From NCBI RefSeq assembly GCF_026151205.1, contig NC_087082.1, forward strand, positions 8,005,908 through 8,069,907: a stretch of 64,000 bases of DNA, read 5' to 3'. This DNA is from Bolinopsis microptera. Its lineage: Eukaryota > Ctenophora > Tentaculata > Lobata > Bolinopsidae. The notes beneath the pieces were generated by a model, which was not told the origin of the DNA, did not search any database, and worked only from the letters and a program-made list of their open reading frames with translations. The translations under genes and the position numbers were made by a program. Of the stretch, positions 4,020-39,452 are shown one piece after another; position 1 is the stretch's first letter; every line of letters begins with the position of its first letter.

Positions 4020-6348
4020 TTATCCTAAATTCAGTACACCCTTAAGAAACATACAAAATGTAACTTCTTCCTTAGTGTTATTGTAGTTTCTAATTTTAAT
4101 AACAGTAGCTTTACAGAATGCGAAGAAGGAGAAGATACTGGCCCCGAGGAACAGCCCCATAACTCCACCAATATCACTCAGCAGATTCCACAACGTGTAT
4201 GCCGGCACACTCGCAATTAGTTCTGTGAATGAGTCTGCTAGATAAAACTCCATCAAAACATGGTTTTTCAGTAAGAACTCCGCAGACGTTTCCAGCCCCC
4301 GCTCGTCGCCGATCTGTTCAGCCAAGATCTTAGCGTTTCTGGCAGATATTTTAGAGGAAGAGACCACAATGTCGAAGTACCGTTTGTAGCAAGCTGGGGG
4401 GCAGCTCCCAGAGCAGGTGAAAGACTTACTGTCCACAAATAAAGGAATACCAGTGGGGGTCTGGGGCAGGGCTGATGCGGTAGTTACGGTCCTGTTTGTA
4501 GACGAAGTACTAGTTACAGGAGGTGAGGATGTGGAGCTCAGCTGAGTGGGAACCTCCTCTCCTAGCGGACCCGCTTCAGCATCACTATTGGGCATGTTCT
4601 CGTCCCTGGTGAGGAAGTGGTAATAAGCCACCCAGCCACAGTCCTCCATCTGCTTTATAGAGCAGGTTGGGTAATTGTACCGGTTATTAGGAGGAGCTGA
4701 TATTATACACCCACACGTGGAGTTTATGTATCTATCCCTACACTCGTACTCACACGAGTCCGCGTCGTACGCTAAATACGAGGTGACATTACGTGTGGGG
4801 TCGCACTCTCCACCTGCCTCGAACTCCAACTCAACCCGGATCTTAGGTTTTATCCCGACCCTGTACTTGTAGCCAGGAGACATCTCAATCTTGCTGCTGC
4901 CTTGGAATGTGGTGTGGTGGTGTATGTCCACTATAAACCCTACTTCAGGCACGGTAGCTGGGTACTCTGCACGGTGCACATTCATTAGGAACCGGAAGCA
5001 GCCCTCGTTACCAACACTCTTAGAGAACACTGTACCCTGGGGGTTGAAAGTATAGCACTTCCCACTTGCTCCTACATCATCAGCGAACAGTTCACTTTTG
5101 TGATAGTCAAGTTCATCACAATCCAACCACCCACCGTATTTACACTGATCTACTGCACGTTGCCACCCGAAACTGTTAGCGTACACATCACTATAGGTCA
5201 ACCTTCCTATCTCAGCTGCAGTCTCGTTCTTCCAATTAACAACCTTTGAAGCCTCTAGTCTGTCCCAAACTTGCTTGAATGTCGGATTGAGGTCTAGGAA
5301 TGAGTTCTCTATCTTGTTCATGTTACAGATGGAGATGGTCGGGAACTCTAATCCATCCTGGTCAGGTTTAACACTGGTTATTACTATCTGGGTGGGTCGT
5401 TCGAAGAAGCGGTTGACAAACAAGCTGATGTTGTAGATGGAGAAGAAGGCGGCTGCTAACCAGGCAGTCATGTAGAATGTTTTCCAGACTGTTCGCACTA
5501 TGCCCAGGCAACGGGCTTCTTTTTCTGGCTCATCTTCCTTCTCCTCTCCCTGAGGGATAAGAAAATTTTTAGCAATACTATTTCATGCTTCAAATTTTCA
5601 GATATATACTCAAGGTGAAACGTGAGAAATAATTGAATTGTTGAAAAGTTGAAACTGTTTGCAGAATAAAAAACCAATAAGAGCTCCTAAACTTACCTGA
5701 GGGACACAACGATGACAAGTGCTACATTCTTCTACACTCTTTACATTGCTTGCTGAAGTGATTAGATAAGGACAAATAAAATGTGGATTGTAGAAGCATC
5801 AAAATATATTGAAAATTTGTATGACGCATATGTTATGACGTGCGAGATATATTGTATTGCAATGAAATGACCCTCTGCACTATAAGTGGAAGAACCATAA
5901 TCCAGCAGAACATCGGTTCAAAAAAACCGATTCGACTGTAGACCATGATCCACCCAGTTATACAGGTAGCTGATAAAAGATATTGATGGGGGGAGGGGGG
6001 CTGCAGAATTAATTATTATTGGATAATAGGACAATTCTCCCACCAACTATAACAATAAAGTGGGAGTGCAAGAGGGTTACTTAATTAATCATAGTCGGAA
6101 AAAGTTAAAAGCGTGTAACGGAAACATTTCTTACTTGAATTCTGGCGCTTCAGTGCAGGACTGTGTGAATTGGGGCATATTTTCGTGTCTGTCAATCCTT
6201 GATCGGTACAGTTGTTCAGATGGTCGATACTGTTGTTCAGATGGTTTTCAGGCTGCAGGTTGTTTTGTGAACCGCCGTACGGGTAGATCTCCGTAGGGCT
6301 ATGGATTTTATTTACCGATGATACGGGTTGAACAACAGCGTCCTTGAC
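4020..6348 (-). CDS. DEG/ENaC-family sodium channel subunit (multi-exon)
   Basis: A ligand- or acid-gated, amiloride-type Na+ channel subunit of the plasma membrane. Supported exons are 6348-6135, 5752-5697 and 5549-4020; each has AG/GT(AAG) borders and the codon phases agree (phase 1, then phase 0). The long last exon holds TM1 (AWLAAAFFSIYNISLF), the post-TM1 FPTISIC block, a cysteine-rich ectodomain with CEYECRDRYINSTCGC (thumb/finger pattern) and CPPACYKRY, a Thr/Ser/Pro-rich insert (near 4440-4590), then TM2 with GLFLGAS, which carries the family's G-x-S selectivity filter. The short cytoplasmic tail ends at TAA. The usual His-Gly gating motif before TM1 is not obvious; only CLG aligns there. 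With a tentative first exon the product is about 608 residues, normal for the family. Subfamily is not determined. Confidence 0.9.
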
Positions 6349-12003: not shown

Positions 12004-13721
12004 ACAAAGCTTATTTCTCCCCCACTCTAAAGATCCACAAGCTTCAAAAGGAAGACCTTAAACCAGGAGTCGAGCCCCCCTTCAGGCTCATCACGGCACT
12101 TCAAGATGGAATCACAAAACGCAGTGATGTTTTCCTTGCTAGCCAATACCTGAAGGATCTTGAAAAGGATTTCTGCTCTGACCTTTTGACTGATAACACC
12201 GATGCCCTTCAATGGTTGGAATTCGTTGATAGTGAACATTCCCCAGTACAGAAGAAAGGCTTCAGATCGTTTACCTACGACTTTAAGGCCCTCTATGACT
12301 CTTTAACACCACCCCTCGTCATAGAGGCCTTAAGGTCCGCTATGTCATCATGTAGAGAAGATTGGTCTGAAGACTTCTGCCAATAGCTCACACAACTGGT
12401 GGAATTAAGCCTCCGATCCTCTGTTGGGGTGTTCGACCAAAATTGGTTCATACAGCTCATTGGTATCCCTACGGGTGGATCACTATGTGTCCAAATCGCA
12501 AACATAGCAGTCTACTACCTAATGAACAAATGTGTTTATAGTAACCCAGAGCTCATGAAGAAGATCGTATCAGCCAGGCGTTACATTGACGACGGAGCAG
12601 GTTTGTTTGAGGGAACTACAGATGAGTTCAAAATTTGGATTGCAGATGTCAACAAAGCACTCCTCCCCCATGGCCTAACCATTGATGAGTACCAAATAGA
12701 AGATCCTGGTAAATACGTATCTTTCCTTGACATAATGTTCACTTTCGATTCCTTGGGCTCCCTCCAAACGGATTTGTTCATAAAGAAAACGGACTCTCGT
12801 TCATACCTACACTTTAAAAGCTCCCATCCAAACCATATCTATTCCGGTATCGTATACTCTCAATGCCTTAGACTCAGAAGGGTCATCAACTGCCAAGAAT
12901 GCCTCAAAGGACACCTCGACAACCTCAAAAAAGCCTTCCTTGCTGCGTGTTACCCTAGGAAAATGGTTGAGAACATTAGTAATAAGGTTCTCAATTCAAC
13001 AAGATCACTGTTACGCAAAGTTCAATCTCCTGATGACCAGACATCTTTACACCTTCCAATCAGGGTCATATCTACTTATGGTAGTGATGATGATTTGGTG
13101 TCTGTGACTAAGAAGTATGAAGAACACCTCTCAAGAACAAGGAGTTTCAGTGAAAGTGACACTGTTGAAACATCCCAAGAGACCTCCTCAACAGCTTCCA
13201 CGCCTAGGAAGAAAATATTCAGTTACACCAAGAAAACAGGGCCAAGCCTAAAATCTCGCCTCGTCAAATTGAAAGAACTTGCTTTAGGAGCTAAACATGG
13301 TCCAACCAGCAAATGCCATATGCCAAGATGCAAATGCTGCGAACTTGTCAAAGGCAGCCATGAATTCAAAGTTAACGGTGAGAAGGTTAAAGCTTCCCCT
13401 AGAAACTGCCTGAGTTACAACATCATTTATCTGTTCCAATGTAGTTTCTGTAGAAAGGCTTACGTCGGTCGCACTACTCGCTCTCTACGGGTTAGAACTG
13501 GAGAACATAGGGTCAAATATTATAAACTATTAAATGGTGATAAGGTAGATGAAACAAGTGATGAATATAGTTTGGGCTTACATTTGTTGGATCATGGTTT
13601 TAAACAAAGGGAGGATTTTAACAAAATTTTTAATGTTTCAATTATTGATAATTCTAGTCCTAAAACTTTAGAAGTTCGTGAACATAAATATATTCAACAA
13701 CTCAAGACTTTAAAACCTTAG
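12004..13721 (+). pseudogene. Penelope-like reverse transcriptase with GIY-YIG endonuclease, one stop
   Basis: Reading frame from the truncation to a stop at 13719-13721, broken once by TAG at 12384. The visible order fits Penelope-like elements: a PTLKIHK block (family LPKIHK), GIPTGGSLCVQIANI (RT block 5), RYIDDGAGLF with the catalytic YxDD-type aspartates near 12580, FLDIMF near 12725, then a cysteine cluster CHMPRCKCC, and a C-terminal GIY-YIG domain (NIIYLFQC, then AYVGRTTRSLRVRTGEHR, near 13420-13510). The N-terminal part of the RT is missing. The element would reverse-transcribe its RNA at nicked DNA. The single stop and the good conservation suggest fairly recent decay. Confidence 0.93.
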
Positions 13722-13726
13722 GGAAT

Positions 13727-14894
13727 AAACACTTTTGCGAAAGCTTTTGATAGCGTTTCGCATGACCTCATTTTAAGTAAATTAAAGAATATTTTTAATG
13801 TCGATGGACTAATGCTTAAATTTATCAAGTCCTATCTTGAGGGGCGACAACAACAAGTAGTGATAGGAGGCCAAACGTCTTCCTCTCTACCAGTTCGGTC
13901 TGGTGTCCCTCAAGGTTCTATACTTGGCCCTCTATTGTTTGTAATATTTATAAATGACATGTTCTCCTGTGTCTCTGAAGGCACCAATATCGCCCTTTAT
14001 GCAGATGACACTAAAATTTGGAGGGAGATTCTTGGTTACCCTGACCATCACATAATCCAAAATGACATCAATAGATTGTATGATTGGTCAGTGAGAAATC
14101 GAATGAAGTTCCACCCACAAAAGTGCAAAGCCCTCTCTGTGTCCCTGCAAAGAAACGTGCTGGATAACTTGCCATTCAATACCTTCTTCTATAAACTTTC
14201 TGGAAGTGATATTGACTTTGTGCCCTCTCAGTCAGATTTAGGAGTCGCAATAAACTCCAGGTTTAATTGGGGTGCACAATGTAAAGCGCTTGTTTCCAAA
14301 GCTACCTCCAGACTTGGACTACTTAAGAGAACATGTCATTTCACTACTGATAAAAGGCAGAAAAGATCGTTCTATTTGGCGTTAATTAGGTCTATATTTG
14401 AACATTGTTCTGTCATATGGTCCCCTCAATCTGCAACTCATCTTCAACAGTTTGTTGCTATCCAAAAGAGGGCTATTAAATGGATCAATGGTGAACCCTA
14501 CTCCAGTTATAATGACGATAAACTTGCTACAGAGCAAAAGAAGCTAAATATTCTCCCTGTCATGCAGAAGTTTATTTATAACGATCTTATGACCTTCTAT
14601 AAAATAGTGAATAGCATAATCCCAGTTTCGCTTCCTACTTATATAGTCCTATGCCGTCCAGAGGGCACCCGATACACTAGGCACAATGCTCAAATAATCG
14701 ATAGGTCGGATACTTCAACTTACATGAGTACCACTGTGCCCTGCTCGGATGCCTTCCGAAATAGCTTCTTTTATAGATCTATGCTGAAATGGAATAGTCT
14801 ACCAGTATGTATCCGGCAGTCAGAGCGGATTTCTACTTTTAAGGCCAATCTGATCAAGTACCTCTGGGCTGCCGATACAGTCTGGCCAGACTAG
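13727..14894 (+). CDS. LINE reverse transcriptase, 5'-truncated but open
   Basis: Open from about 13727; the first in-frame ATG is at 13812. Motifs: FAKAFDSVSHDLI (palm A, the usual leading Asp lost at the truncation), SGVPQGSILGPLLF (block 4/5, near 13900), ALYADDTKIW (YADD active site, near 13995), LGVAINSRFNW, and the C-terminal SVIWSPQS and FFYRSMLKWNSLP thumb blocks. This is a Jockey/CR1/I-type RT C-terminal half. The missing endonuclease and N-terminal RT make this copy dead despite the intact frame. It starts right after the Penelope-like stop, so it is probably a separate 5'-truncated insertion. Confidence 0.85.
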
Positions 14895-27225: not shown

Positions 27226-28215
27226 TGTAAGCAGTGATTTGTAGAGTTACGTTAATATATTGTAGTATGAACTTTTATTCGGAGAATTTTATATTATAGT
27301 ATGAATTTGTGGTCAGAGAGTTAGATAGGGAGGATAATAAAGTTAGCAAGTAGCCTAATTGATAAATGAAGTCAGGGACCGGGAGGACAATAGGATATTA
27401 GGCGTGATTTATGACGACCTTGGAATCCTTAGAATTGTAGCTTCATCTGATTCATTCATTTAATTAAAACCAAACTTCGTCGGGACACCGTGACTTGGAA
27501 CAATGAATCTTTTGTTGGAAGATAAGACCAGCTGCTCAAGGTGGGAAGGGCGCACGTGAGGAGATAGGGGGAAAAAGCACGCACTGAGCACTATAAATAG
27601 TAAAAAGCTTGGAGAAGCAAAGATAGCAAGTTTGCCCCTTTCTGAGGGGGGTCATTGATGCCGGACACCTTGGATCCAGGAACCGTTACGGTAGGGTCCT
27701 GGAGAGAAGGTTGTCACGGTCCAGTATAGATAGTGGAGCTGTGCTCCGGTACCTGCCTGGCTTAGATGTAGACGAGGGGGTGGTAGTGTAACCACAACTG
27801 GGCTCTGGACGAGCGGGCTAATATACCAGGCGTTGAGCTTCGAGTGCTGTAGAGGTCTTGTAAGAGTAGATTAAGGGCGGAATCCCGTTAGGCACGGTCA
27901 ACAGGGGTTGACCGTGAGGGGGAAGTAGGCAGAATAGGGCGTGATAGAGCCAGACGATGGGGTGGTCTTGTAACCACAGCAGGGCTCTGGAAGAGCGGTC
28001 AGATATACTAAGATACTAGGCGTTGTGCTGCAAGGGCTGTAGAAGTTATTTAAGGGCCGGGTAGCGTAATTTAGAGGTGTATTCCAGTATAGTCGATTTG
28101 TAATCCTTTGTTATTATCCGAGTTGTTTCCTATTAGTTATCTTGTTTTCATTGGTCTGTAAACTTAATTAAATACAAATAACTACGAACTCAAAAGCAAG
28201 TGTCCACTGCTTACA
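27226..28215 (+). repeat. 5' LTR
   Basis: 990 bases, TGTAAGCAGT ... CACTGCTTACA. I found no difference from the 3' LTR on a by-eye walk. It contains a TATA box (27591), an ATTAAA near 28167 as possible polyadenylation hexamer, and an internal imperfect duplication of roughly 85 bases (about 27776-27860 against 27960-28050, sharing GTAACCACA, GGGCTCTGGA, AGCGG and AGGCGTTG). Confidence 0.97.
27591..27600 (+). promoter_or_regulatory. TATA box of the 5' LTR
   Basis: CTATAAATAG at a position that would place transcription start near 27625. The same site in the 3' LTR is at 37424-37433. It follows the common LTR promoter layout; start site not mapped. Confidence 0.6.
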
Positions 28216-28216
28216 A

Positions 28217-28230
28217 TGGCGCGAACGGTA
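28217..28230 (+). promoter_or_regulatory. putative primer-binding site
   Basis: TGGCGCGAACGGTA begins one base after the LTR. The leading TGG complements the universal CCA end of a tRNA, as in LTR elements. I could not name the tRNA. Confidence 0.6.
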
Positions 28231-28346
28231 GGATCTTATTTTATTATAAGTTAGTGTATTTGTATTTTAATTATGGGGAATAGGGGGGAGAGGGTATCCT
28301 TATTAAAGAGGTCGTGATCTAAAAAGATTCTGCAATAAGCAAGGAC

Positions 28347-29441
28347 ATGGAAACAGAATTAAGAGAGGAATTAGAAGAAGTAAAGAAGGTAAATGAGAAA
28401 ATAAGGAAAGAACGCGAGGAACTAAGGACAGAATGCGTGGAGACTGAAGCAGCGAACGCGGAGTTACGGACGCAATATGAGGAGTTGAGACAGCACGGGG
28501 CACAGCTAAGGAGGGATGGATTTACAGAAGGTAAATTAGAAGCCATGGAAGAGAATGAGAGAAAGATGAGAGTAAGAGAAGAGAATAGAGCAGCGGCGGG
28601 TAAGAATTACCCCTTGATGAAACCACGAATGTTTGAGCTGGGGAGAGACAGTTTTAGAACCTTCCTGAGCGGGTTTAGAATATTTGCTCATGCGGCCAAC
28701 ATTAAGGAGGAGGACTTGGTAGATATAATCATGACTTACTTGGATCCAAAGGCCCAAAGGAGAGTGGAGACTCTAAGGTTGTCCCAAGAAGAAAAGAGGG
28801 ATGTTGAAGCGAGTTTTGAGAGGATAACCGAGGTGCTGAGCGAGGTTCATTCGAAGGCGGAGTGCAGGAGGAGACTTTATGAGATGAAGCAAAAGGAGGA
28901 GGAAACCATTTCGGACTTTGCAGCTAGGGTCACTGAGATGGTAGAGGCTGCCTATGCACCGGAGGAAGAGGCAATTAAGAAGACCATCAGGCTGGATGTA
29001 TTTACCGCAGGAGTATTGAAGGATGAAATCGGGATAGAATTAATTAAGTCTGAAGTGCAGGATTTTGAGGCAGCGTTAAAGAGGGCGGTTAAATTGGACG
29101 GGATTCTAGCAAGTCGTAATCCTAAACCAGTAAGGAATGATGAGGAGCTGTTGTTCCAAATTGGGGAGAATGTAGAAGTAGATGAGGGGGTCGTGAACCG
29201 TCTGATGGATGAAAGCAGGATGAGAGGGGAAGTAGGCGCGTGTTACACCTGTGGACAGCATGGACATATGGCTAGGGAAGGTAGAAAGCCCATTCTTTGT
29301 TATGCGTGTGAGAGACCGGGACATATTGGAAGAGATTGCCCACAAAGACAGGGCGGCCGAGGAGGTTTTCAAAGAGGGAGAGGGACGAGGTTGACAGGGT
29401 TTAATATTTTTGAAGGGAAGAGGGGTAAGTTTCATTTTTGA
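28347..29441 (+). CDS. Gag polyprotein of the LTR element
   Basis: 364 residues. Residues 1-60 are highly charged and predicted coiled coil (ELREELEEVKKVNEKIRKER). Residues about 90-270 match the layout of a retrotransposon capsid (Retrotrans_gag-like, with FRTFLSGFRIFAHAANI and TISDFAARVTEMV). Two nucleocapsid knuckles follow. The second, CYACERPGHIGRDC (residues 318-331), is a perfect CCHC; the first, from C299, has C, C and H but Gly at residue 312 where the last Cys belongs. A basic Gly/Arg-rich tail binds RNA in such proteins. It would assemble the particle. No protease or RT frame continues from it. A possible splice donor GGG|GTAAGT lies at 29425 near the stop. Confidence 0.92.
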   Translation: METELREELEEVKKVNEKIRKEREELRTECVETEAANAELRTQYEELRQHGAQLRRDGFTEGKLEAMEENERKMRVREENRAAAGKNYPLMKPRMFELGRDSFRTFLSGFRIFAHAANIKEEDLVDIIMTYLDPKAQRRVETLRLSQEEKRDVEASFERITEVLSEVHSKAECRRRLYEMKQKEEETISDFAARVTEMVEAAYAPEEEAIKKTIRLDVFTAGVLKDEIGIELIKSEVQDFEAALKRAVKLDGILASRNPKPVRNDEELLFQIGENVEVDEGVVNRLMDESRMRGEVGACYTCGQHGHMAREGRKPILCYACERPGHIGRDCPQRQGGRGGFQRGRGTRLTGFNIFEGKRGKFHF

Positions 29442-29529
29442 AAAGGAAGAAAGGGGAAAGGTGGACAGGGTATTTGATTAATATATATAATTTAGATTAA
29501 AGTAGCGTTTAAATTGACCGTTCAAGTCA

Positions 29530-29535
29530 TTTCAG
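29530..29535 (+). promoter_or_regulatory. candidate 3' splice site before ORF2
   Basis: CATTTCAG|GTG within the open frame that leads into ORF2. ORF2 has no early ATG, so a spliced message that brings its start codon from upstream is plausible. A donor candidate in gag is AAG|GTAAAT near 28390. Splicing directly from the donor at 29425 would be out of frame. Confidence 0.4.
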
Positions 29536-29590
29536 GTGTAGTTATTGCTTAGTTATTACGGGAAGTGAGTATGAAGAGTGGAGAGTCAGG

Positions 29591-31072
29591 TTGGAAAAGA
29601 AGAACATCCGAGAATATGAGAACAAAGCAGAGGGTTTGGTGGTGGTAGAACGAAAGTGTGTCACAGAAGAAAGCTTTTTTGGAGTAAAAACGAACGAAAA
29701 AACGATGAGTTATGCGAGATTGACAAAGGAGACAGCTGATAAGGTGATAAGTCTACAAGGATGCATTGATGATAAAGGAGAAGTGGTCAAAAATGAGGGT
29801 AAGAGATTTTACAATTGTAAATGGGGATGGATGGAAAAGATAACCACGGTGGAAGGTAGTGGTAAACATGTTAAAGGGTCAGTGTATGTGAAGCACGGCC
29901 ATGAAGCGAGAACAGATTTAACAAGTTTTAGAGGGTGTAAATATAATCAGGGGTATTGCAAGACTGGGAATGAAATGTACTTAAGATGGGAAGTGAGACC
30001 GGAAGTGAGAGAAAGTTTCGAGGAAGTGGGAAGTTATGATGCAGTTCAAATTAATGGGCATTTATTATTCGAGGAGTTGGGGTTGGTAATTGAGGTGAAG
30101 GGAGGAGTGAATGTCACAAAATGGGTAGATCGAGAATTTAGGGTCACTAAGGAAAGTAGGAAGGATCACGTAGTTAAGGCAGTGAATTCAGATGAAGAAT
30201 CAATAAACGCACTAAGAGATGAATTAAATAGCAGATTTGAATACCTGGTGGAACTGATCAAATCACCTAAAGCACAGGCAATATATTTATGCAAAGTCTG
30301 GAATAGGTTAAGAATGATTGAAAAAATTACGGCTATGATAGATCCTACGACGTATATTAGAGAAAAGACGGGCAATAATTTATTGGTAGGACGGAGAGCA
30401 GGGGACTATGTGGTAGCTTACCCATGCGTAGAGGTAACTAAGTTAAAATGGATCAAACAGACGGGAGGGAAATGCTATGACGGTTTACCAGTAAAATTCG
30501 AGGTTAATGGATCGGAAACGGAACATAAGGGATTCCTTTTACCAAGGCATAATAAAGTTGAATTCAGGGGAATAGAGGTAAACTGTCACAAAAAGCAGCC
30601 AATAATAACGGAAGTAAAAGGAAAGTTAGAATGGCACTCAGCACAATCTGAGGATACACATAAGGTTAATGTAAGTAACGTGATAGACCTGACTAGTCAA
30701 ATGGAAGAAGGAGTAGGGGTGATAGATTTTATGCAAGCAGATTGGGTGTATAATGCGGAAGACTTAAGAGATACTGAGATTGACAGGCTAGTAATGGAGG
30801 AAAATTCGTTAAATCATGACAGCAAAATAGAGGGATCAGAAGGTGGGGAGGTTAGTTCACTTTGGGAGTTCCTGGGAATATTCAATGGGAAGATATCAAC
30901 AATGATTAATGCGGTAATAATGTGGATCGAGAGAGTGGCAATAGTGATATTATTATGGAAGGTTTTTAAGAGCTCTTGTAGTTGTTTGAGGAGGAGGAGA
31001 GTAAGACGAGGAGGGGCCCCGAGTTACGCTAGCGTGAGAAATAAGGAGAGGGTGAGAGAGAGAGAAGTGTGA
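29591..31072 (+). CDS. ORF2, putative type I membrane glycoprotein of the LTR element
   Basis: The frame is open from 29513 to 31072. The position 29591 is a TTG codon and the first in-frame ATG is 29705, so the true N terminus is probably supplied by splicing (acceptor at 29535). The product has about 10-15 scattered cysteines (GCIDDKG, YNCKWGW, GCKYNQGYC, GGKCYDG, VNCHKK) and a hydrophobic stretch MINAVIMWIERVAIVILLW near residue 440-458. A Cys-rich then Arg-rich short tail (SSCSCLRRRR) follows. That layout suggests an ectodomain, an anchor and a 35-residue cytoplasmic tail. No signal peptide is visible in this frame. I recognise no family; it could be a second envelope subunit or an accessory receptor-binding protein. 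Confidence 0.65.
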   Translation: MEKKNIREYENKAEGLVVVERKCVTEESFFGVKTNEKTMSYARLTKETADKVISLQGCIDDKGEVVKNEGKRFYNCKWGWMEKITTVEGSGKHVKGSVYVKHGHEARTDLTSFRGCKYNQGYCKTGNEMYLRWEVRPEVRESFEEVGSYDAVQINGHLLFEELGLVIEVKGGVNVTKWVDREFRVTKESRKDHVVKAVNSDEESINALRDELNSRFEYLVELIKSPKAQAIYLCKVWNRLRMIEKITAMIDPTTYIREKTGNNLLVGRRAGDYVVAYPCVEVTKLKWIKQTGGKCYDGLPVKFEVNGSETEHKGFLLPRHNKVEFRGIEVNCHKKQPIITEVKGKLEWHSAQSEDTHKVNVSNVIDLTSQMEEGVGVIDFMQADWVYNAEDLRDTEIDRLVMEENSLNHDSKIEGSEGGEVSSLWEFLGIFNGKISTMINAVIMWIERVAIVILLWKVFKSSCSCLRRRRVRRGGAPSYASVRNKERVREREV

Positions 31073-31113
31073 TTTGAAGGAGAACAATTGAAATAAGGCA
31101 CTAGTGCAAGAGC

Positions 31114-31116
<3 letters not shown>

Positions 31117-31199
<83 letters not shown>
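31117..31199 (+). repeat. (GA)n microsatellite between ORF2 and ORF3
   Basis: About 80 bases of almost pure GA dinucleotides with a few AAAG interruptions. The Leu/Ser ORFs on the opposite strand are artefacts of it. Confidence 0.97.
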
Positions 31200-31372
31200 G
31201 AGAGAAAGATAAGATACACAGGGAGGAAGTAATGTGAAGAAGGTAAATTAGTATGCGCATACTATAAGAATTAAAGAGGGAAAGGGAAAAGTGACAAGTT
31301 GATATTTGAATTTTCAATAAATGAATTGCTGTGAATGAATAACGAATGTAAAATGGTTAAACATAATAACGA

Positions 31373-31382
31373 CTTTTATCAG
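31373..31382 (+). promoter_or_regulatory. candidate 3' splice site directly before ORF3
   Basis: CTTTTATCAG ends one base before the ORF3 start codon (31384). A polypyrimidine-like acceptor in exactly this place is what a spliced subgenomic envelope message would use. Confidence 0.5.
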
Positions 31383-31383
31383 G

Positions 31384-34056
31384 ATGATTAAGTGGTATTT
31401 TGTGATAATGTTAGCCAGAGTGGTAGGAGCGAATGAGGAGATTTATGTGAATGAGGAACTAGGAACCATACTGATTTCGAAGGGACTATTACTAGCAGAT
31501 CAGAGGTCAGCGTACATATCGAGTTTTATTCGAGTACCGAACCCATTAGCAGACGTGAATTTATGCAATTTAGGGTGTGGACAAGGGTCCGTTACTTTAG
31601 ATAAGTATCTAATGGCTGCGGGATGCAAAGTAGGAGCTGGTAAGACGGGATTAGATAAGGTAGCAGATACGGTCATACAGGGAATTGAATATGAGCCAAG
31701 AGAAGAGGGAGTATCGGGAGGCAGAGCCTTGGAAAGTTGGTGTCTGCTGGAATGTCTAAGATCGAACAAGTGTAAGGCTTTTGGAGTAAAAGAGGGCAGC
31801 TTGTGTTGGTTAAGAAGTCGAGCGCTAACACATTATGAACTGAAGGATCAAGTAGGAAGTGCAGAGGTGGACTTAGCGTGTGTGGTGAAGAACAATAGGA
31901 CGAAAGTGTGTGAGGAACTGTTGAAAGAGGACAGCATGAATTACTTGATGACCCAAGATAATGAGAGATTTGTGCGAGAGCATTGGGAATCAATCAATCA
32001 GTTGATCAAAAATTCAGAAGGAACGATGAGGAGGAAGCGGTCCATAATAGGCACTTTGGCGGGGGCATCTATTGGATTCTTGGCAACAGGATTTTCATTT
32101 TTTGAGATGAACAAACTTGGGGATCATGTAGATAAGTTGAGAGCTGAATATAATGATTTCAGGGAAAGACAAGTGAAGTTTGATAAGGATCAAATAGAAT
32201 TTAATAAGGAGGTGTTGAAGATCTACAAGGGCCTAGAGAGAGAGACTCAGAAGGAGATAAGACGATTACATTGTGGGGTAAGTAGTTTGGGGTTCCATAT
32301 TTTGAATATGAGGAGATTGATGGAGTGGAAGGATTTCTTGTACCAGCTATACAAGGACGTTTTAGGAGGGGCAATGGTAGGGTCGATTTCTACCGTGATC
32401 TTCACTAAGGAAAACATGAGGACCGTAATAAAAGAGACAGAGTTGTTGAAGGGGACAATATATGAAGAAAACCCGACACTGGCGTATAGGCTGGGGACCA
32501 TGTCCATAGTGGAGAAATCGATAAGAGAGGATAGATTTGTGATCCATGTAGTTTTAAAATTGCCCATAATAAAGAGAGAAGAACTAAAGGTTGTGTTTGA
32601 GGTTCAACAGACAGGGGTGAGGCATGGAGAAGCGTGTGTGAAGTATAATTTACCAAGAAATGTGTACAAGAGTGAGGGGAAATTCTATGTGTTGGAGTCA
32701 CCTATGTGTTCAATGATTTCGAACATTAGGCTGTGTACGTCAAGTATCAACAGTACGTTCACGGAAATGCCTTGTATCTCGGATAAGGGGAGCTGTGTGG
32801 GGACATTAGAGAAGTGTAGCACCAACATTAAGCAAAGTATGGGGGGAGTCTTAGTGAGAAGTCAGGAACCAATCAGAGCAGCGGTGTTAGGGGACCCGAA
32901 TACTTTCGATCCAGAGCAGCCGAGGGCGAACTCAGTAACCTTTTTTAATTACAGTAGATATGGAGACGTGTTGGTGGGGAAAGTCAAGATAAGAGGAATA
33001 CGATCAGCAACGTTGGACAAGGTGGTAAAGCTGTCCAATCCCACACAATGGCTGGAGGAGATAAGAAATGATACAAGGAAGTTAACAAAGCAGAACATCA
33101 CGCGCTTGACAAAAATCATTGAAGATCAGAGTAAGGAGTTGGAGAAAATGAACGAGAGCACTGAACAAAACCGGAGATGGACCTGGTACATTGTGCCAAT
33201 GGTTATAATTATGGGATTGATGATAATAGGATATGAGTGTGTGTGGAAAGCGCTTCCGGAGGGATGTAGAGAAAGAGTGGCGAGCTGTAAGAAGTGTAAA
33301 GACTCCCTGGAAAGGCGTCCCCAATATGAAGAAATAACATCTTCCCGGAAACGAACAAGAAGGAATACTGATGAAGATACGGAGGAAAGGCTGGAGATAA
33401 AAGACAAATGTACTGCATTAGAGGATGAAGGGGAATTATTGGAAGGCTTTAACAGATATGGTGAGGAAGTTAGGGGATGGTTGCCAAGCATAACCTCCGA
33501 ACTAGAAAGGGTAATGAGAATCCAGGAAGAAAACAGATCAAGGACTGAGGAAGGAGTAAGATATAGGATGAAAGAGAATAAACTACGGAATACACTCAGC
33601 TGGAGATTCGACAAGACGTTGGAAAGTTATCCGCTGGCAGAAAGGAATAAGACACTTTATGATAGATTGGCCCGAGAAATCGGCGATGAAATTATAAAAG
33701 ATGAGGACCAAACCAGGGAGGAAGCTAAAAGTACGGAGAGGGAAGAGACAGAGTTTGAAAGAATGGCAAGACAAGCAAAAGACGGGGAATATATCAGAAG
33801 GATGGGTCTAAAGAGGGGTGAACAACTGGACATGCAATTGGTCCGAGGGATAAAACAAATAATGAAAAATGCAAAGGAAACAAGTACCGAGTCGGAAATG
33901 GGAAAAGAGGGGACCAAAAATAGTGAAAATGAGGGTCAGCAGGTGAATAAAAGAAGAGCGATATATACGGTGAAATTTCCGGGAGCAAAACCTGTCCGTG
34001 TGGAGGAAACTGGAGTGGATGCGAGTCGGGGAAAGAGCCTGGGAGATCCGGAATAA
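31384..34056 (+). CDS. ORF3, envelope-like class I fusion glycoprotein of the LTR element
   Basis: 890 residues, starting with a hydrophobic signal peptide (about residues 1-16). A Cys-rich N-terminal subunit contains a PAN/apple-like segment (SWCLLECLRSNKC, then CWLRS, near residues 118-140). Residues 216-219 are RRKR, a furin-type cleavage site, followed at once by a Gly/Ala-rich hydrophobic segment (SIIGTLAGASIGFLATGF) of fusion-peptide type. A long heptad region (residues about 243-300) and a second one near 560-595 suit a six-helix bundle. The anchor begins at W599 (WTWYIVPMVIIMGLMIIGY), and an unusually long charged tail of about 265 residues follows. Several N-glycosylation sequons are present. 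The layout resembles baculovirus F-like or retroviral envelope proteins; which lineage is unresolved. It is intact and free of stops. Confidence 0.85.
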   Translation: MIKWYFVIMLARVVGANEEIYVNEELGTILISKGLLLADQRSAYISSFIRVPNPLADVNLCNLGCGQGSVTLDKYLMAAGCKVGAGKTGLDKVADTVIQGIEYEPREEGVSGGRALESWCLLECLRSNKCKAFGVKEGSLCWLRSRALTHYELKDQVGSAEVDLACVVKNNRTKVCEELLKEDSMNYLMTQDNERFVREHWESINQLIKNSEGTMRRKRSIIGTLAGASIGFLATGFSFFEMNKLGDHVDKLRAEYNDFRERQVKFDKDQIEFNKEVLKIYKGLERETQKEIRRLHCGVSSLGFHILNMRRLMEWKDFLYQLYKDVLGGAMVGSISTVIFTKENMRTVIKETELLKGTIYEENPTLAYRLGTMSIVEKSIREDRFVIHVVLKLPIIKREELKVVFEVQQTGVRHGEACVKYNLPRNVYKSEGKFYVLESPMCSMISNIRLCTSSINSTFTEMPCISDKGSCVGTLEKCSTNIKQSMGGVLVRSQEPIRAAVLGDPNTFDPEQPRANSVTFFNYSRYGDVLVGKVKIRGIRSATLDKVVKLSNPTQWLEEIRNDTRKLTKQNITRLTKIIEDQSKELEKMNESTEQNRRWTWYIVPMVIIMGLMIIGYECVWKALPEGCRERVASCKKCKDSLERRPQYEEITSSRKRTRRNTDEDTEERLEIKDKCTALEDEGELLEGFNRYGEEVRGWLPSITSELERVMRIQEENRSRTEEGVRYRMKENKLRNTLSWRFDKTLESYPLAERNKTLYDRLAREIGDEIIKDEDQTREEAKSTEREETEFERMARQAKDGEYIRRMGLKRGEQLDMQLVRGIKQIMKNAKETSTESEMGKEGTKNSENEGQQVNKRRAIYTVKFPGAKPVRVEETGVDASRGKSLGDPE

Positions 34057-35061
34057 CAAAAGGAGGGCAAACGTCAACAGGAAAACGCTATTTGGAGGTA
34101 ACAGGTAATTAGAAAAGGTAAGGCATGCACATTAAAAAGGTAAAAGTATAAATTGTATAGTATTAAAAAGGTATTGTTTATGGGCACATAACACAAAAAG
34201 GTTAAAATTAAGTTAATGCCTGGGGCCAAATAGTTTAGACCAAAACATAAAAAACTGCTGCATAAAATATTCCCTTAATTTGTAAAATAGAAAGGTAACG
34301 ATAACCGTGCAGACTACCGAAAAAACACCACGGTAAATAACGAGTTCCAGAGGGAACTTAGGAGGGGTAGATAGCAGCAGGGGCGACGTGGTGACAGGAG
34401 GAGTAGTAAGGGCCGGGTCCAGATTCAGTGGTCTGAAGAGGGTTAATGTTAACAGGAGGAATCAGAGGTAAGAAGTATCAGGGATGTGTGTTCTAGAAAT
34501 AGAGACAGATTTAGCTGTAAATTAAAGGTTAAATCAGACATTAACATAAGGTCATTTACCTGTTGCATATGGAGGAGGTGCAGGTAGAGCAGGAAGCAAA
34601 AGAATAGTGCCGTGGACATGGTCCACAGCCGTTAACCGTAAGCGACTCAAAGCAGGCCCAAGTAGTCCTAAGATTAGATACGGAAAATAAAGTTGTTTGT
34701 ATATAAGTAAGTGTAAGGGTAACATATATACAGCATGAGAGTAAGCCCTGCCATCTTGAACGGACAAGAACTAAGGTAGTGCAGAATACGTTGGAAACAA
34801 TCGAATACGGGGTGCCATTTTAAAATCACTCTAAACGGTGTGTCTAATGTAATACTTTAATTAGAACACCTGGGGGTTAAGATGAGAAACAGAATATCTC
34901 GGAATGGCTATTGTTGAACGTTCAGTTGACATCGGCGAGTTTTATTATGTATTCCGTTCTTGTAGTAGATAAAGTAGCGATGATTTGCAGAAAAGGTAGA
35001 TAAGATAGGGTAAAATCGAAATAGAGGTCCTACTAAATAAAGGTAAAACTAAGGTAAAACT
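34057..35061 (+). other. non-coding 3' region of the LTR element, part 1
   Basis: No substantial plus-strand ORF. Purine-rich with several AAAAAGGTAA words (34115-34210). No pol motif in any frame. Confidence 0.6.
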
Positions 35062-35545
35062 TGATGGAGGACACATGGATTGAAGGCCGCATGGAAGCAT
35101 GGATCGAAGATAGATTGGAGGACACATGGATTGGAGGTCGTATGGAAGCATGGATTGGAGACAGATTGGAGGACACATGGATTAGAGGTCGCATGGAAGT
35201 ATGGATCGAAGACAGATTGGATGACAGATGGATTGGAAGTCGCATGGAAGCATGGATCGGAGACAGATTGGAGAACACATGGATTGGAGGTCGCATGGAA
35301 GTATGGATCGAAGACAGATTGGATGACAGATGAATTGGAATTTGGAGGTCACATATAAGCATGGATCGGAGACAGATTGGAGGACACATGAATTGGAGGT
35401 CACATAGAAACATGGATCGGAGACTGATTGGATGACAGATGAATTGGAGGTCACATAGAAGCATGGATCGGGGACAGATTGGAGGACACATGGATTGGAA
35501 GTCACATAGAAACATAGATCGGAGACTGATTGGATGACAGATGAA
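35062..35545 (+). repeat. minisatellite in the LTR element (TGGATYGGAGRYMGATTGGA units)
   Basis: Imperfect tandem units of about 60 bases built from GACACATGGATTGGAGGTC, GCATGGAAGCATGGAT and GGAGACAGATTGGA. They give long but meaningless ORFs on both strands (repeats of SMCPPICLRSML on the minus). Confidence 0.9.
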
Positions 35546-35559
35546 TGGGAGGTCACGAA

Positions 35560-35945
35560 GAAGACACACGGAGACCTGTGAGAAGACACGTGAGCACATT
35601 GGAATAAGACACATGGAGACATTGGAAGAAGGCACATGGCATTGGGAAGAGACATATGAAAACATTGGAAGAAGACACATGGAGACATTGGAAAAAGACA
35701 CATGGAGACATTGGAAGGAGACACGTGAACTCATTGGAAAAAGACACATGGAGAAATAGGAAGAAGACACATGGCATTGGGAAGAGACATATGAAAACAT
35801 TGGGAGGAGACACGTGGAGACCTGTGAAGGAGACATGTGAACACATTGGAAAAAGACACATGTAGACATTGGAAGAAGACACATGGAGACATTGGGAAGA
35901 GACACGTGACACATTAGAAGGAGACACGTGAAACATTAGAAGAAG
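35560..35945 (+). repeat. minisatellite in the LTR element (GACACATGGAGACATTGGAA units)
   Basis: About 16 imperfect copies of a 22-24 base unit, adjoining and probably related to the previous array. Antisense ORFs (FQCLHVSSSNV repeats) come from it. Confidence 0.9.
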
Positions 35946-37058
35946 ACACAGATATGGAAAGCTGGAGGGAAGGACAGTACGATAATACAGGGGACTGTAC
36001 AAAATGTTGGAAAACGAGTGGAAGACGGAGACATGGTGTGAGAAGAAGAGAGAGACGCAGAGAGGTTGATAATTGAGAGGAACACCAGTGAAACAAGAGA
36101 GATACACAGTAAAAGAAACAATGGAACGATGTTGGGAGGAGACCCGGAGACTTGGAGACTTACCAGGTTGTAAATACATTCTAGTAGGAGCAGTTGATCC
36201 AAAAGGTTTTACGCTATTCTTCCAACCTAAAAACGAAAAAATTTGATAGATGTAGAAGAGTAATGAATTTATAAAGTAAACTTAGACTGGATTGATTAAC
36301 TATGGGGGATTATCATCCCCCAGGGGCGCTGGAGAAAAGCTGATCAATACATACCTTGAAATGAAGATAGGGAGCGAATCTAATCATCCGGAGAGGAGCT
36401 GCTCACCATATCATTTTGGATAGGAAGACTTGGAGTCGGAGGCCACAAGTGGAGTGGGAGAAGTACCCGACGCAAAGTACTCCTCAAAAGTGACAGAAGG
36501 AGGATCGTCAGAAGAACTGATTTCGTCATGATGTACAGAGTCAGACATAATTAAGACGGATTGAAGGGCGGTAAAAAGATACGAAACATACCTGAAGCGG
36601 ATGTCAATCACGAGGAGCTGGGGAGCAGGTCACTTCATCAGATTGGAGGAGGGGAGCTGGAGACGGGGAAGGGCGAAGGAGGACTCGGCGGGAGTTAACG
36701 GAAACACTCCGTAAAATCAGAGCTAAACGTAAAGGAGGAGGAGAAGAAGAGGTAACTAAAGATACTCTAATGACATCTACGTGCACATCCGACAGGAGAG
36801 GAGAAAGTCAAGTGAGCGGGACATTTTATAGAGGATAGAGGGACAATTTGTAGAGGGAGAATTGATTTAATTTAAATCAGGATGGACTTCAAAAATGTTT
36901 AATATTTAGTAGGGTTGGGGACACGGCATTAAAATATGATAAACGGAATGATCCGGGCTAGCGTAGTTTAATGTAACGAGCCGTGATTCTGAGTGTTATG
37001 TTAAAGTTTAAGGCAAGGTATAATAGGGTTCTAAAAAATATTTATTTTGAAAGAGTTG
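35946..37058 (+). other. non-coding 3' region of the LTR element, part 2
   Basis: No recognisable protein. Just before the 3' LTR the sequence is TTTTGAAAGAGTTG; a long polypurine tract, expected next to the 3' LTR, is missing or very short (GAAAGAG). Confidence 0.55.
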
Positions 37059-38048
37059 TGTAAGCAGTGATTTGTAGAGTTACGTTAATATATTGTAGTA
37101 TGAACTTTTATTCGGAGAATTTTATATTATAGTATGAATTTGTGGTCAGAGAGTTAGATAGGGAGGATAATAAAGTTAGCAAGTAGCCTAATTGATAAAT
37201 GAAGTCAGGGACCGGGAGGACAATAGGATATTAGGCGTGATTTATGACGACCTTGGAATCCTTAGAATTGTAGCTTCATCTGATTCATTCATTTAATTAA
37301 AACCAAACTTCGTCGGGACACCGTGACTTGGAACAATGAATCTTTTGTTGGAAGATAAGACCAGCTGCTCAAGGTGGGAAGGGCGCACGTGAGGAGATAG
37401 GGGGAAAAAGCACGCACTGAGCACTATAAATAGTAAAAAGCTTGGAGAAGCAAAGATAGCAAGTTTGCCCCTTTCTGAGGGGGGTCATTGATGCCGGACA
37501 CCTTGGATCCAGGAACCGTTACGGTAGGGTCCTGGAGAGAAGGTTGTCACGGTCCAGTATAGATAGTGGAGCTGTGCTCCGGTACCTGCCTGGCTTAGAT
37601 GTAGACGAGGGGGTGGTAGTGTAACCACAACTGGGCTCTGGACGAGCGGGCTAATATACCAGGCGTTGAGCTTCGAGTGCTGTAGAGGTCTTGTAAGAGT
37701 AGATTAAGGGCGGAATCCCGTTAGGCACGGTCAACAGGGGTTGACCGTGAGGGGGAAGTAGGCAGAATAGGGCGTGATAGAGCCAGACGATGGGGTGGTC
37801 TTGTAACCACAGCAGGGCTCTGGAAGAGCGGTCAGATATACTAAGATACTAGGCGTTGTGCTGCAAGGGCTGTAGAAGTTATTTAAGGGCCGGGTAGCGT
37901 AATTTAGAGGTGTATTCCAGTATAGTCGATTTGTAATCCTTTGTTATTATCCGAGTTGTTTCCTATTAGTTATCTTGTTTTCATTGGTCTGTAAACTTAA
38001 TTAAATACAAATAACTACGAACTCAAAAGCAAGTGTCCACTGCTTACA
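37059..38048 (+). repeat. 3' LTR
   Basis: Same 990-base sequence as the 5' LTR, followed by the target duplication GTAG. Confidence 0.97.
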
Positions 38049-38183
38049 GTAGTTTAACTCATTGAAGTAATTATGTGAAACGACTTCTTCTAGAATTTAG
38101 CATTTAAAACCGCTGCTATATGTAATGAAAAAACCAAGTAAATGGAATGGAAAATGGTCTCGAAAAGTCGAAAAATGTGACTA

Positions 38184-39346
38184 ATGACGCTAGATGATGC
38201 TAGATGACGCTAGATGATGCTAGATACCGCCAGATAGCGACAATTAGCGACAATGCCACCAGTTGCGTGGCACCTTTTCAATGTCGCAATCTAGCGCTAG
38301 ATAGCGCTGGATGTAATGACGCTATATAAATTTGTTTAATTGTGCCGAGCGTGACTGGCGTACTGCACTGGCGTGCCAGGTAATTTGATTTTCGAGCCTG
38401 CGACATTGCATGCGTTTTTTGATTGAACTTGTTTTCATGATTTTATTTCATCGATTTAATTTGGGCGTTGTAAACGAGCCAAAAACTTCGATCCACGTAT
38501 TATTCGAACTAATTATGTCTTCGAAATATGTCTACACGAAATGAAGTATGAAATATATGAATTACACTATAATACTGGTACTACTACAAAATAGTAGTAG
38601 TACTACAAAGATTCAATAAAAAAGTAATTAATTACGATTATAGAGTGAAACGAAACACCCTAGTTTGTAGTTCGTACTTCGTTTACAACGCCCAACTTGA
38701 AGTTGAATCGATAAAACAAAATCGAAACAAGACGTTCAATCAAAAATGCCACTGGCTCAAAAATGAATACTAAATCAACACTAACTATTCACACAATTAA
38801 ATGGTTCAGTGCTTGAGGGGGCGTTATATTGTAGATTAATAACCTACCAAGACACGCAGCTTCCTGAGTGAAGTGAACAATAGACTAGCAAGCGGAGTAA
38901 TAATTTGGACTCTTCAATAGTCTTGTAATAATATTTGGACAAATATTTTACGAGTTTCACCTGTTAAACGTTATATTACGACAGCCATGAGTGACAAATT
39001 ATTGTCAGATGTCGCGGCGACATCTAGCATGAACTGTCGCAAACCGACATTCTCCACTACCGTATCTAGCGCTAGATATCGCCGTGTCAAATGTCGCCGC
39101 AACATATAGTGCTAGACAGGGCTAGATGTCGCCCAAAAAAAGGCCAACAAATTCTGTGGCAAATAGCGCTAGCTGTCGTCTGGCAACAGTGTCGCGTAAC
39201 TAGCGTTAAATGACGCTAGATAGCGTCATCTAGAGCTAGATCGCGACTTTGAAAAGGTGCCACGCAGTTGGCGGCATCGTCGCTAATTGTCGCTAACTGG
39301 CGGTATCTAGTGTCATCTAGCGTCATCTAGCATCATCTAGTGTCAT
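38184..39346. mobile_element. foldback element with long GCTAGAT-rich inverted ends
   Basis: Left arm about 38184-38309 and right arm about 39222-39346 are inverted copies (ATAGCGACAATTAGCGAC and GTGGCACCTTTTCAA on the left against their complements on the right). A second inverted pair lies inside, 38415-38475 with 38690-38752 (GATTGAAC ... GGGCGTTGTAAACGA). The heptamer GCTAGAT or GCTAGAY recurs over a dozen times, mostly near the ends. No coding capacity; clear target duplication not found. Confidence 0.75.
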
Positions 39347-39452
39347 TTCACGCTAGATGTCGAATTTCAACAATCGGTAAAGGTCCTAAAATTGTTGTAG
39401 ACTAAAAATTTGCGAAATTTGTGACTAAAATCATGGTAGCCAAAATGTTTGT

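Follow-up and report, generated by a model that had tools for sequence, protein, structure and literature searches.

Structure of the element

The window, as we call the whole stretch of 64,000 nucleotides analysed here (C11:8005908-8069907, contig NC_087082.1), comes from the ctenophore Bolinopsis microptera, and at 27226-38048 it holds a long terminal repeat (LTR) retroelement that carries gag and two envelope-like open reading frames (ORFs) and is devoid of pol. A sequence-only reading had described a young, bounded element flanked by GTAG, with three open frames and no pol on either strand, and these points were borne out. The LTRs are identical at 990 of 990 positions, start with TGTAAGCAG and end with CTGCTTACA; with GTAG on both flanks as a 4-bp target duplication, they show the short duplication of Ty3/Gypsy LTR retrotransposons (Metaviridae). 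The frames encode 372, 519 and 905 amino acids (aa), and the zinc knuckle of the first matches Pfam PF00098 (E 1.3e-9). No pol family was found among the Pfam matches of ORF1, ORF2 and ORF3, and six-frame tblastn searches (E 1e-3) with the reverse transcriptase (RT) and the RNase H/integrase of a pol-bearing relative on contig C4, and with a 1323-aa pol of another family, gave no match within the element. From the gag stop to the ORF2 open frame there are 71 bases, a gap put at about 70 in the earlier reading. The element is assigned, putatively, to the Ty3/Gypsy type by Pfam matches and gene order. The likely primer-binding site, TGGCGCGAACGGTAGGA, presumably resembles that of tRNA-Ser-primed gypsy elements.

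Table 1. Features of the element in window coordinates
Feature	Position	Strand	Evidence or remark
5' LTR	27226..28215	+	990 bp; 0/990 differences from 3' LTR; GTAG outside
Likely primer-binding site TGGCGCGAACGGTAGGA	28217..28233	+	sequence; directly after 5' LTR
ORF1, truncated gag	28323..29441	+	372-aa open frame; one intact CCHC knuckle
Pol-deletion junction AGGGAGAGGG	29375..29384	+	found on each side of the deleted part in C4, which bears pol
Gag tail	29385..29441	+	sequence that sits downstream of pol in the C4 copy
ORF2, putative N-terminally truncated glycoprotein of gB/Monjiviricetes (class III) type	29513..31072	+	519 aa; homolog matches
Splice-acceptor-like TTTCAG	29530..29535	+	sequence
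6-nt filler AGTTAT	29551..29556	+	stands in for 230 bp present in C4, with the start and signal-like peptide of ORF2
ORF2 membrane span	30893..30949	+	hydrophobicity scan
ORF3 open frame	31339-34056	+	905 aa stop to stop; first Met is residue 16
ORF3 from first Met, putative paramyxovirus/pneumovirus F-like class I fusion protein	31384..34056	+	homolog Pfam match; Foldseek
ORF3 furin-type site RRKR and fusion-peptide-like stretch	32029..32100	+	sequence, alignment, hydrophobic stretch
ORF3 membrane span	33175..33231	+	hydrophobicity scan
3' region without recognised gene	34057..37058	+	differs between copies
3' LTR	37059..38048	+	990 bp; identical to 5' LTR

Copies in the genome

We searched the genome (264.65 Mb in 232 contigs) with LTR bases 1-500 in a DNA search (40 of 50 candidates scored) and with gag in a protein search (110 of 290 scored), and copy numbers are therefore lower bounds. 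This search, which the sequence-only reading had proposed as a check, found both kinds of copy. At least five gag loci are at least 96% alike: the window copy (hereafter C11), C5:10.10 Mb, C6:20.64 Mb, C5:22.14 Mb (C5b) and C4:13.57 Mb. Pol is absent from four of the five (C11, C5, C6 and C5b), all with the same junction, and C4 is the pol-bearing copy. A solo LTR lies at C4:8.62 Mb with an AATG duplication. The gag of C4 is 97% alike to the window gag, and its genes run in the order 438-aa gag (four knuckles), aspartic protease, RT, RNase H with integrase, a 300-aa ORF, a second CCHC ORF, ORF2 and ORF3; the Pfam protease, RVT_1, RNase H and integrase domains of its pol are located at the place of the junction.

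Target duplications differ between the copies (GTAG at C11, AAGG at C6, TATT at C4). Within a copy, the 5' and 3' LTRs differ at 0/990 (C11), 1/1034 (C5), 0/948 (C6) and 1/1035 (C4) positions, while between C11, C5 and C6 they differ by 2.6-5.0%, and by up to 6.6% when the partial C5b LTR is included. The C5 LTR is nearer to that of the pol-bearing C4 (1.3-1.5%) than to that of C11 (2.6-2.7%). Because the LTRs are nearly identical within copies but 2.6-5.0% apart between them, the pol-less form appears to have moved repeatedly. We count at least four pol-less insertions, three of them apparently recent; they seem to be separate events, and the lineage would be older than any single insertion. 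Several insertions of one defective form are what characterises a trans-mobilised non-autonomous LTR element. As for coding state, all three ORFs are open in C5, C6 has frameshifts in ORF2 and ORF3, and in C5b gag and both envelope-like ORFs are broken. An assembly artefact is ruled out by the identical junction at four loci.

How pol was lost

All four pol-less copies share an identical gag/ORF2 junction and an identical 6-nt filler in ORF2. In C4, two copies of AGGGAGAGGG lie 5,933 bp apart and flank the part that is missing elsewhere, and the pol-less copies retain one of them; among 100,000 random pairs of breaks drawn in this part of C4, a shared stretch of at least 10 bases occurred at 5. 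A further 230 bp, with the start and signal-like peptide of ORF2, has been swapped for AGTTAT in all four, and this filler repeats the sequence that precedes it. C5b has lost an additional 3 bp after the filler. Both the deletion at the AGGGAGAGGG repeat and the filler would fit template switching. We also considered a reverse-transcribed spliced RNA as the source of the deletions and rejected it, given that the window lineage breaks within the 10-nt repeat and that L053, a copy of a second family described below, has a break without a 5' GT.

These observations change two points of the sequence-only reading. It had held that a deletion sparing both neighbours would be lucky, but less luck was needed: the junction lies within a 10-nt repeat, and gag and ORF2 are both damaged. 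It had also counted a one-off deletion in an otherwise pol-bearing family as a refutation. A single deletion in such a family is indeed the origin that the copies point to, but the deletion was then propagated, as seen in four copies with the same junction.

Gag and the two envelope-like proteins

The window gag has one intact CCHC knuckle versus four in the C4 gag. Knuckles 3 and 4 are lost in the three pol-less copies that have two LTRs, and the last Cys of knuckle 1 is lost in two of these three.

ORF2 has seven homologs in the protein collection, of which three pass the Pfam model PF24664 (Monjiviricetes_fusion); the window protein itself passes no Pfam cut-off. It also aligns with ORFs at other gypsy-type loci of the same genome, of which that at L047 matches BDV_G above the cut-off and that at L046 matches herpesvirus Glycoprotein_B below it. 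The structure model of ORF2 is poor, with a predicted local distance difference test score (pLDDT) of 45.5. On sequence evidence we assign ORF2 to the gB/Monjiviricetes (class III) family. Judged by eye, the window ORF2 lacks both a signal-like peptide and any in-frame ATG ahead of residue 65; it has also lost one cysteine that the other seven aligned proteins retain. The start and signal-like peptide are missing in all four pol-less copies, which thus lack what a class III glycoprotein is expected to carry for the secretory pathway; C4 ORF2 retains both. A spliced leader exon could provide the start and signal peptide. In one other record, P0013, an integrase-tail-like stretch appears by eye to be fused to the ORF2 body, as another deletion in a close relative might leave.

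In the protein collection, 12 homologs of ORF3 were found. Two of the 13 aligned proteins match Pfam Fusion_gly PF00523: P0012 passes (31.1 bits, cut-off 29.8) and P0011 matches weakly; the window ORF3 is unmatched. The AlphaFold model, with a pLDDT of 54.7 and a predicted template modelling score of 0.30, is of modest quality; when it was compared with PDB by Foldseek, the best match was the F protein of respiratory syncytial virus (E 5.4e-7), with the best 50 of 384 matches all to paramyxovirus or pneumovirus F. The template modelling scores are low (0.08-0.22 by query length), as expected because the model is poorly packed. Searching PDB sequences with the ORF3 and ORF2 profiles gave chance-level matches only, with no F for ORF3, and among viral contigs 24 pattern matches to ORF3 relatives were obtained, none of them confirmed. 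The signal-like N-terminus, RRKR site, fusion-peptide-like stretch and membrane span of ORF3 are those of an env-type fusion glycoprotein. From the homolog match and the modelled fold, we read ORF3 as a class I fusion protein, F-like in the manner of paramyxoviruses and pneumoviruses. An ORF3 relative (P0005) and an ORF2 relative (P0014) are each listed from a Joint Genome Institute (JGI) contig of 5,371 bases, a hint that the two also occur as a pair in other elements.

Silent and replacement changes (dN/dS) were counted on the parts shared by the copies, excluding the non-homologous 5' end of C4 ORF2, and the pairs are not independent of one another. For gag (354 codons), the silent/replacement counts among C11, C5 and C6 were 2/14, 2/10 and 0/14, with no silent excess; against C4 they were 8/7, 10/17 and 10/11 (p 0.005, 0.05 and 0.005). 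The ectodomain and membrane span of ORF3 gave 8/3, 15/15 and 13/12 (p 3.3e-4 to 6.2e-4), and its tail gave 2/5 in the single pair tested (p 0.64), indistinguishable from neutral. For the pairs C11-C5, C11-C6 and C5-C6, respectively, the first part of ORF2 gave 6/8, 2/9 and 6/3 (p 0.04, 1 and 0.003) and the second part 1/1, 6/3 and 7/2 (p 0.37, 0.004 and 4e-4). By these counts, gag looks neutral in the pol-less copies, ORF3 looks constrained, and ORF2 looks so less clearly, with a mixed signal. The suggestion of the sequence-only reading that gag and both envelopes are under selection for assembly and fusion is thus only partly supported, and not in the form given: ORF3 looks constrained (p 3e-4 to 6e-4) and ORF2 less clearly so, but gag looks neutral and has lost knuckles, and the start and signal-like peptide of ORF2 are gone. 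Because the copies are mosaic, the constraint on ORF3 may have been acquired in pol-bearing relatives.

The mosaic structure was examined on segments present in all of C11, C5, C6 and C4, with at most four informative sites per segment. The 27 informative sites support three different groupings (7, 9 and 11 sites) that are clustered along the element, with 10 switches between groupings compared to a mean of 17.7 expected; 27 of 20,000 shuffles reached that value. Pol-less and pol-bearing forms have thus probably recombined, as would be expected if their RNAs were co-packaged in the same particles, and the mosaics fit both co-packaging and help in trans.

Other double-envelope families in the genome

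Other gypsy-type loci carry the same pair of gB-like and F-like ORFs. L047 (C8) has gag, the 1323-aa pol and ORFs of gB-like, F-box (match below the cut-off) and F-like type, and L048 (C2) has matches in the order pol, gB-like, F-like. L046 (C11:20.45 Mb) has gag, a protease with an RT stub, and gB-like, F-like and F-box ORFs, with no RT or integrase past the stub; its ends are a 226-bp repeat that is 100% identical, and its outer flanks (CATG and CATA) form no duplication. L051 (C12) is 99.7-99.9% alike to L046, but has a different pol deletion. In L053 (C7) the leader joins the region before gB, with neither gag nor pol, and in L052 (C3) a piece of gag is joined to the final 75 gB codons, followed by F. 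This second family thus appears to have lost pol through several different deletions. Its F frames are open in all four copies read (704, 704, 696 and 704 codons); these copies were picked from F-like places, and say nothing on whether retention of F outnumbers its loss.

More widely, a script paired 35 F-like places (from 51 rows, after fragments and weak rows were removed) with 32 gag places (from 112 rows). A gag match lies within 16 kb upstream at 20 of the 35 F-like places, at a distance of 1.4-4.7 kb in 8 of the 20, too short for pol and a gB-like ORF, and of at least 5.1 kb in the other 12. Several side observations belong to these families. L053:819-4801 keeps an LTR, the leader and the gB-like ORF, and its F-like ORF begins at the end of the stretch read; five further copies of the L053-type F ORF have no gag match within 16 kb upstream. 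In L031, L033 and L035 (71-73% gag identity, tblastn), the stretch read matches neither RT nor envelope, and these loci seem to have kept gag and little pol. A small F-box protein occurs in related env-carrying elements, at L046:84-1028 (-), where PF00646 is above its cut-off, and at L047:7780-8451 (+), where it is below.

Explanations for the pol-less form

We consider it probable, at roughly 0.85, that the element is part of a non-autonomous lineage within a family of Ty3/Gypsy-type endogenous retroviruses, a lineage that lost pol by deletion and was copied with the help of pol-bearing relatives. In its fuller form the family carries gag, then protease, RT, RNase H and integrase, followed by accessory ORFs, gB-like ORF2 and F-like ORF3. 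Zinc knuckles 3-4, pol and the accessory ORFs were removed by one deletion between two AGGGAGAGGG repeats, which probably arose when reverse transcription switched template, and a further 230-bp loss with a 6-nt filler took the ORF2 start and signal-like peptide. Since the RNA retains the LTRs, primer site and leader, it could be packaged in mixed particles and copied by the enzymes of pol-bearing relatives, which probably also supply full Gag, and inside these particles it would recombine with their RNA, as the mosaic sequence suggests. A polymerase supplied in trans, as the sequence-only reading had it, is the best reading given a multi-copy pol-less lineage with a pol-bearing relative, but that relative is itself broken. 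RT lies in a different frame from RNase H/integrase in C4, and a second gypsy-like element lies within its ORF3; it is the single close pol-bearing relative read, and a competent helper was not seen there. The same reading is also weakened by the flanks of C5, where a CTTT duplication holds only with one T counted also in the LTR, and by C5b, where the 5' LTR is missing from the stretch read. On balance, we regard the element as a mobile yet defective morph whose pol, and probably also full Gag, would come from its relatives.

Why gag and the envelopes were kept is a separate question, and we give about even odds to passive retention, in which signals for packaging, splicing or the second strand lie in the kept region and the ORFs were inherited recently. 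The copies are very young, gag looks neutral and ORF2 damaged, and for the bovine ERVK D-type and RecKoRV the retention of flanks together with parts of gag and env is reported and read as a possible cis effect (PMC10924933); however, the LTRs of C11 and C5 differ by 2.6-2.7%, yet all three ORFs are open in both. Selection within the pol-less lineage on the envelope pair, above all F-like ORF3, is a tentative and rather doubtful alternative, in which the satellite supplies a fusion protein for itself or for a common pool and takes Gag and Pol from relatives. It would account for the silent excess in the ORF3 ectodomain and membrane span (p 3.3e-4 to 6.2e-4), which gag does not share, and for open F frames in 4/4 second-family copies that suffered different pol deletions, but mosaicism means that the constraint could stem from pol-bearing donors, ORF2 and ORF3 are broken in C6 and C5b, the ORF3 tail is neutral-like in the single pair tested and ORF2 mixed, and the second-family copies were drawn from an F search that would miss copies without F. 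Host takeover of the gene trio, as with syncytins, is very improbable: open ORFs and a constrained ORF3 could be read that way, whereas identical LTRs, multiple loci with different duplications and a damaged ORF2 speak against it. We reject a pol that is present but hidden (spliced, on the other strand or highly diverged), to which we attach a negligible chance, as the gap between gag and ORF2 is 71 bases, there is no ORF, Pfam or tblastn signal, and C4 reveals where pol used to be.

The broadest interpretation, of a Ty3/Gypsy-type clade with two unrelated fusion machines (class I F-like and class III gB-like) that repeatedly spawns pol-less satellites in which the envelope, and not gag or pol, is under selection, would make the element a parasite of a parasite that pays with a fusion protein. 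As a whole we regard this as unlikely and offer it as speculation.

Other features of the window

Inside the element, minisatellites at 35065-35554 (51 bp) and 35557-35950 (23 bp) vary among copies. Just beyond it, a 126-bp inverted repeat (38183-38308 and 39222-39347, 90% complementary, 913 nt apart) possibly marks another transposon. Elsewhere, an intronless 520-aa ORF at 4020-5582 (-) presumably encodes a DEG/ENaC-type sodium channel, an ORF at 12387-13721 (+) with RT-like and GIY-YIG-like sequence is, we assume, perhaps a Penelope-like element, and we take 767-1593, 13722-14894 and 62148-63570 to be further RT-like fragments.

Comparison with known systems

The best-studied defective retroelements that ride on complete ones have, to our knowledge, no working genes. 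Here, pol was lost (by one deletion in the window family and by several in the second) while the F-like frame is open in the young copies read, and envelope selection in a satellite becomes testable from copy sequences. The presence of class I and class III fusion proteins in one retroelement would also bear on how envelopes are gained and on whether the two proteins divide the task of entry.

In the portions of the literature consulted, the nearest described counterparts are TelKA2n and the trans-complemented bovine D-type ERVK, with RecKoRV and ETn. TelKA2n, from the rotifer Adineta vaga, is likewise a retrovirus-like LTR element, related to a family with a paramyxovirus F-like env, and its authors found env variation to be mostly neutral; unlike the present element it has one envelope gene, and no gB-like partner is mentioned in the sections consulted (PMC5408684). 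The D-type of bovine ERVK[2-1-LTR], which parallels RecKoRV and ETn, is described in the consulted sections as consisting of trans-mobilised defective morphs that recombine with competent ones and keep flanking portions of gag and env, but these are vertebrate retroviruses; in the bovine D-type members none of the gag, pro, pol and env ORFs is intact, and old retroelement sequence has taken the place of the centre (PMC10924933).

Acquisition of a class III glycoprotein by an LTR element is also reported for Anakin-type elements with a chuvirus/Jingchuvirales glycoprotein (PMC10084718, PMC7642597); these are BEL/Pao elements, however, with no F partner mentioned in the text consulted (PMC10084718), where it was stated in 2023 that there was no clear evidence for glycoprotein capture by Gypsy. 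Env-carrying gypsy elements and errantiviruses share with our element a Ty3/Gypsy backbone with env and are widespread in animals; gypsy elements with type III fusion glycoproteins have been noted (PMC13172572), but two fusion proteins in one element were not found in the parts of these sources consulted (PMC13172572, PMC12992720, PMC12859917). None of the titles and abstract openings searched describes an LTR element with both glycoprotein types, which the survey of Chary and Hayashi may cover. We therefore regard a retroelement that carries both class I F-like and class III gB-like proteins as provisionally new. Trans-mobilised defective elements were already known, and the double envelope is the newer part.

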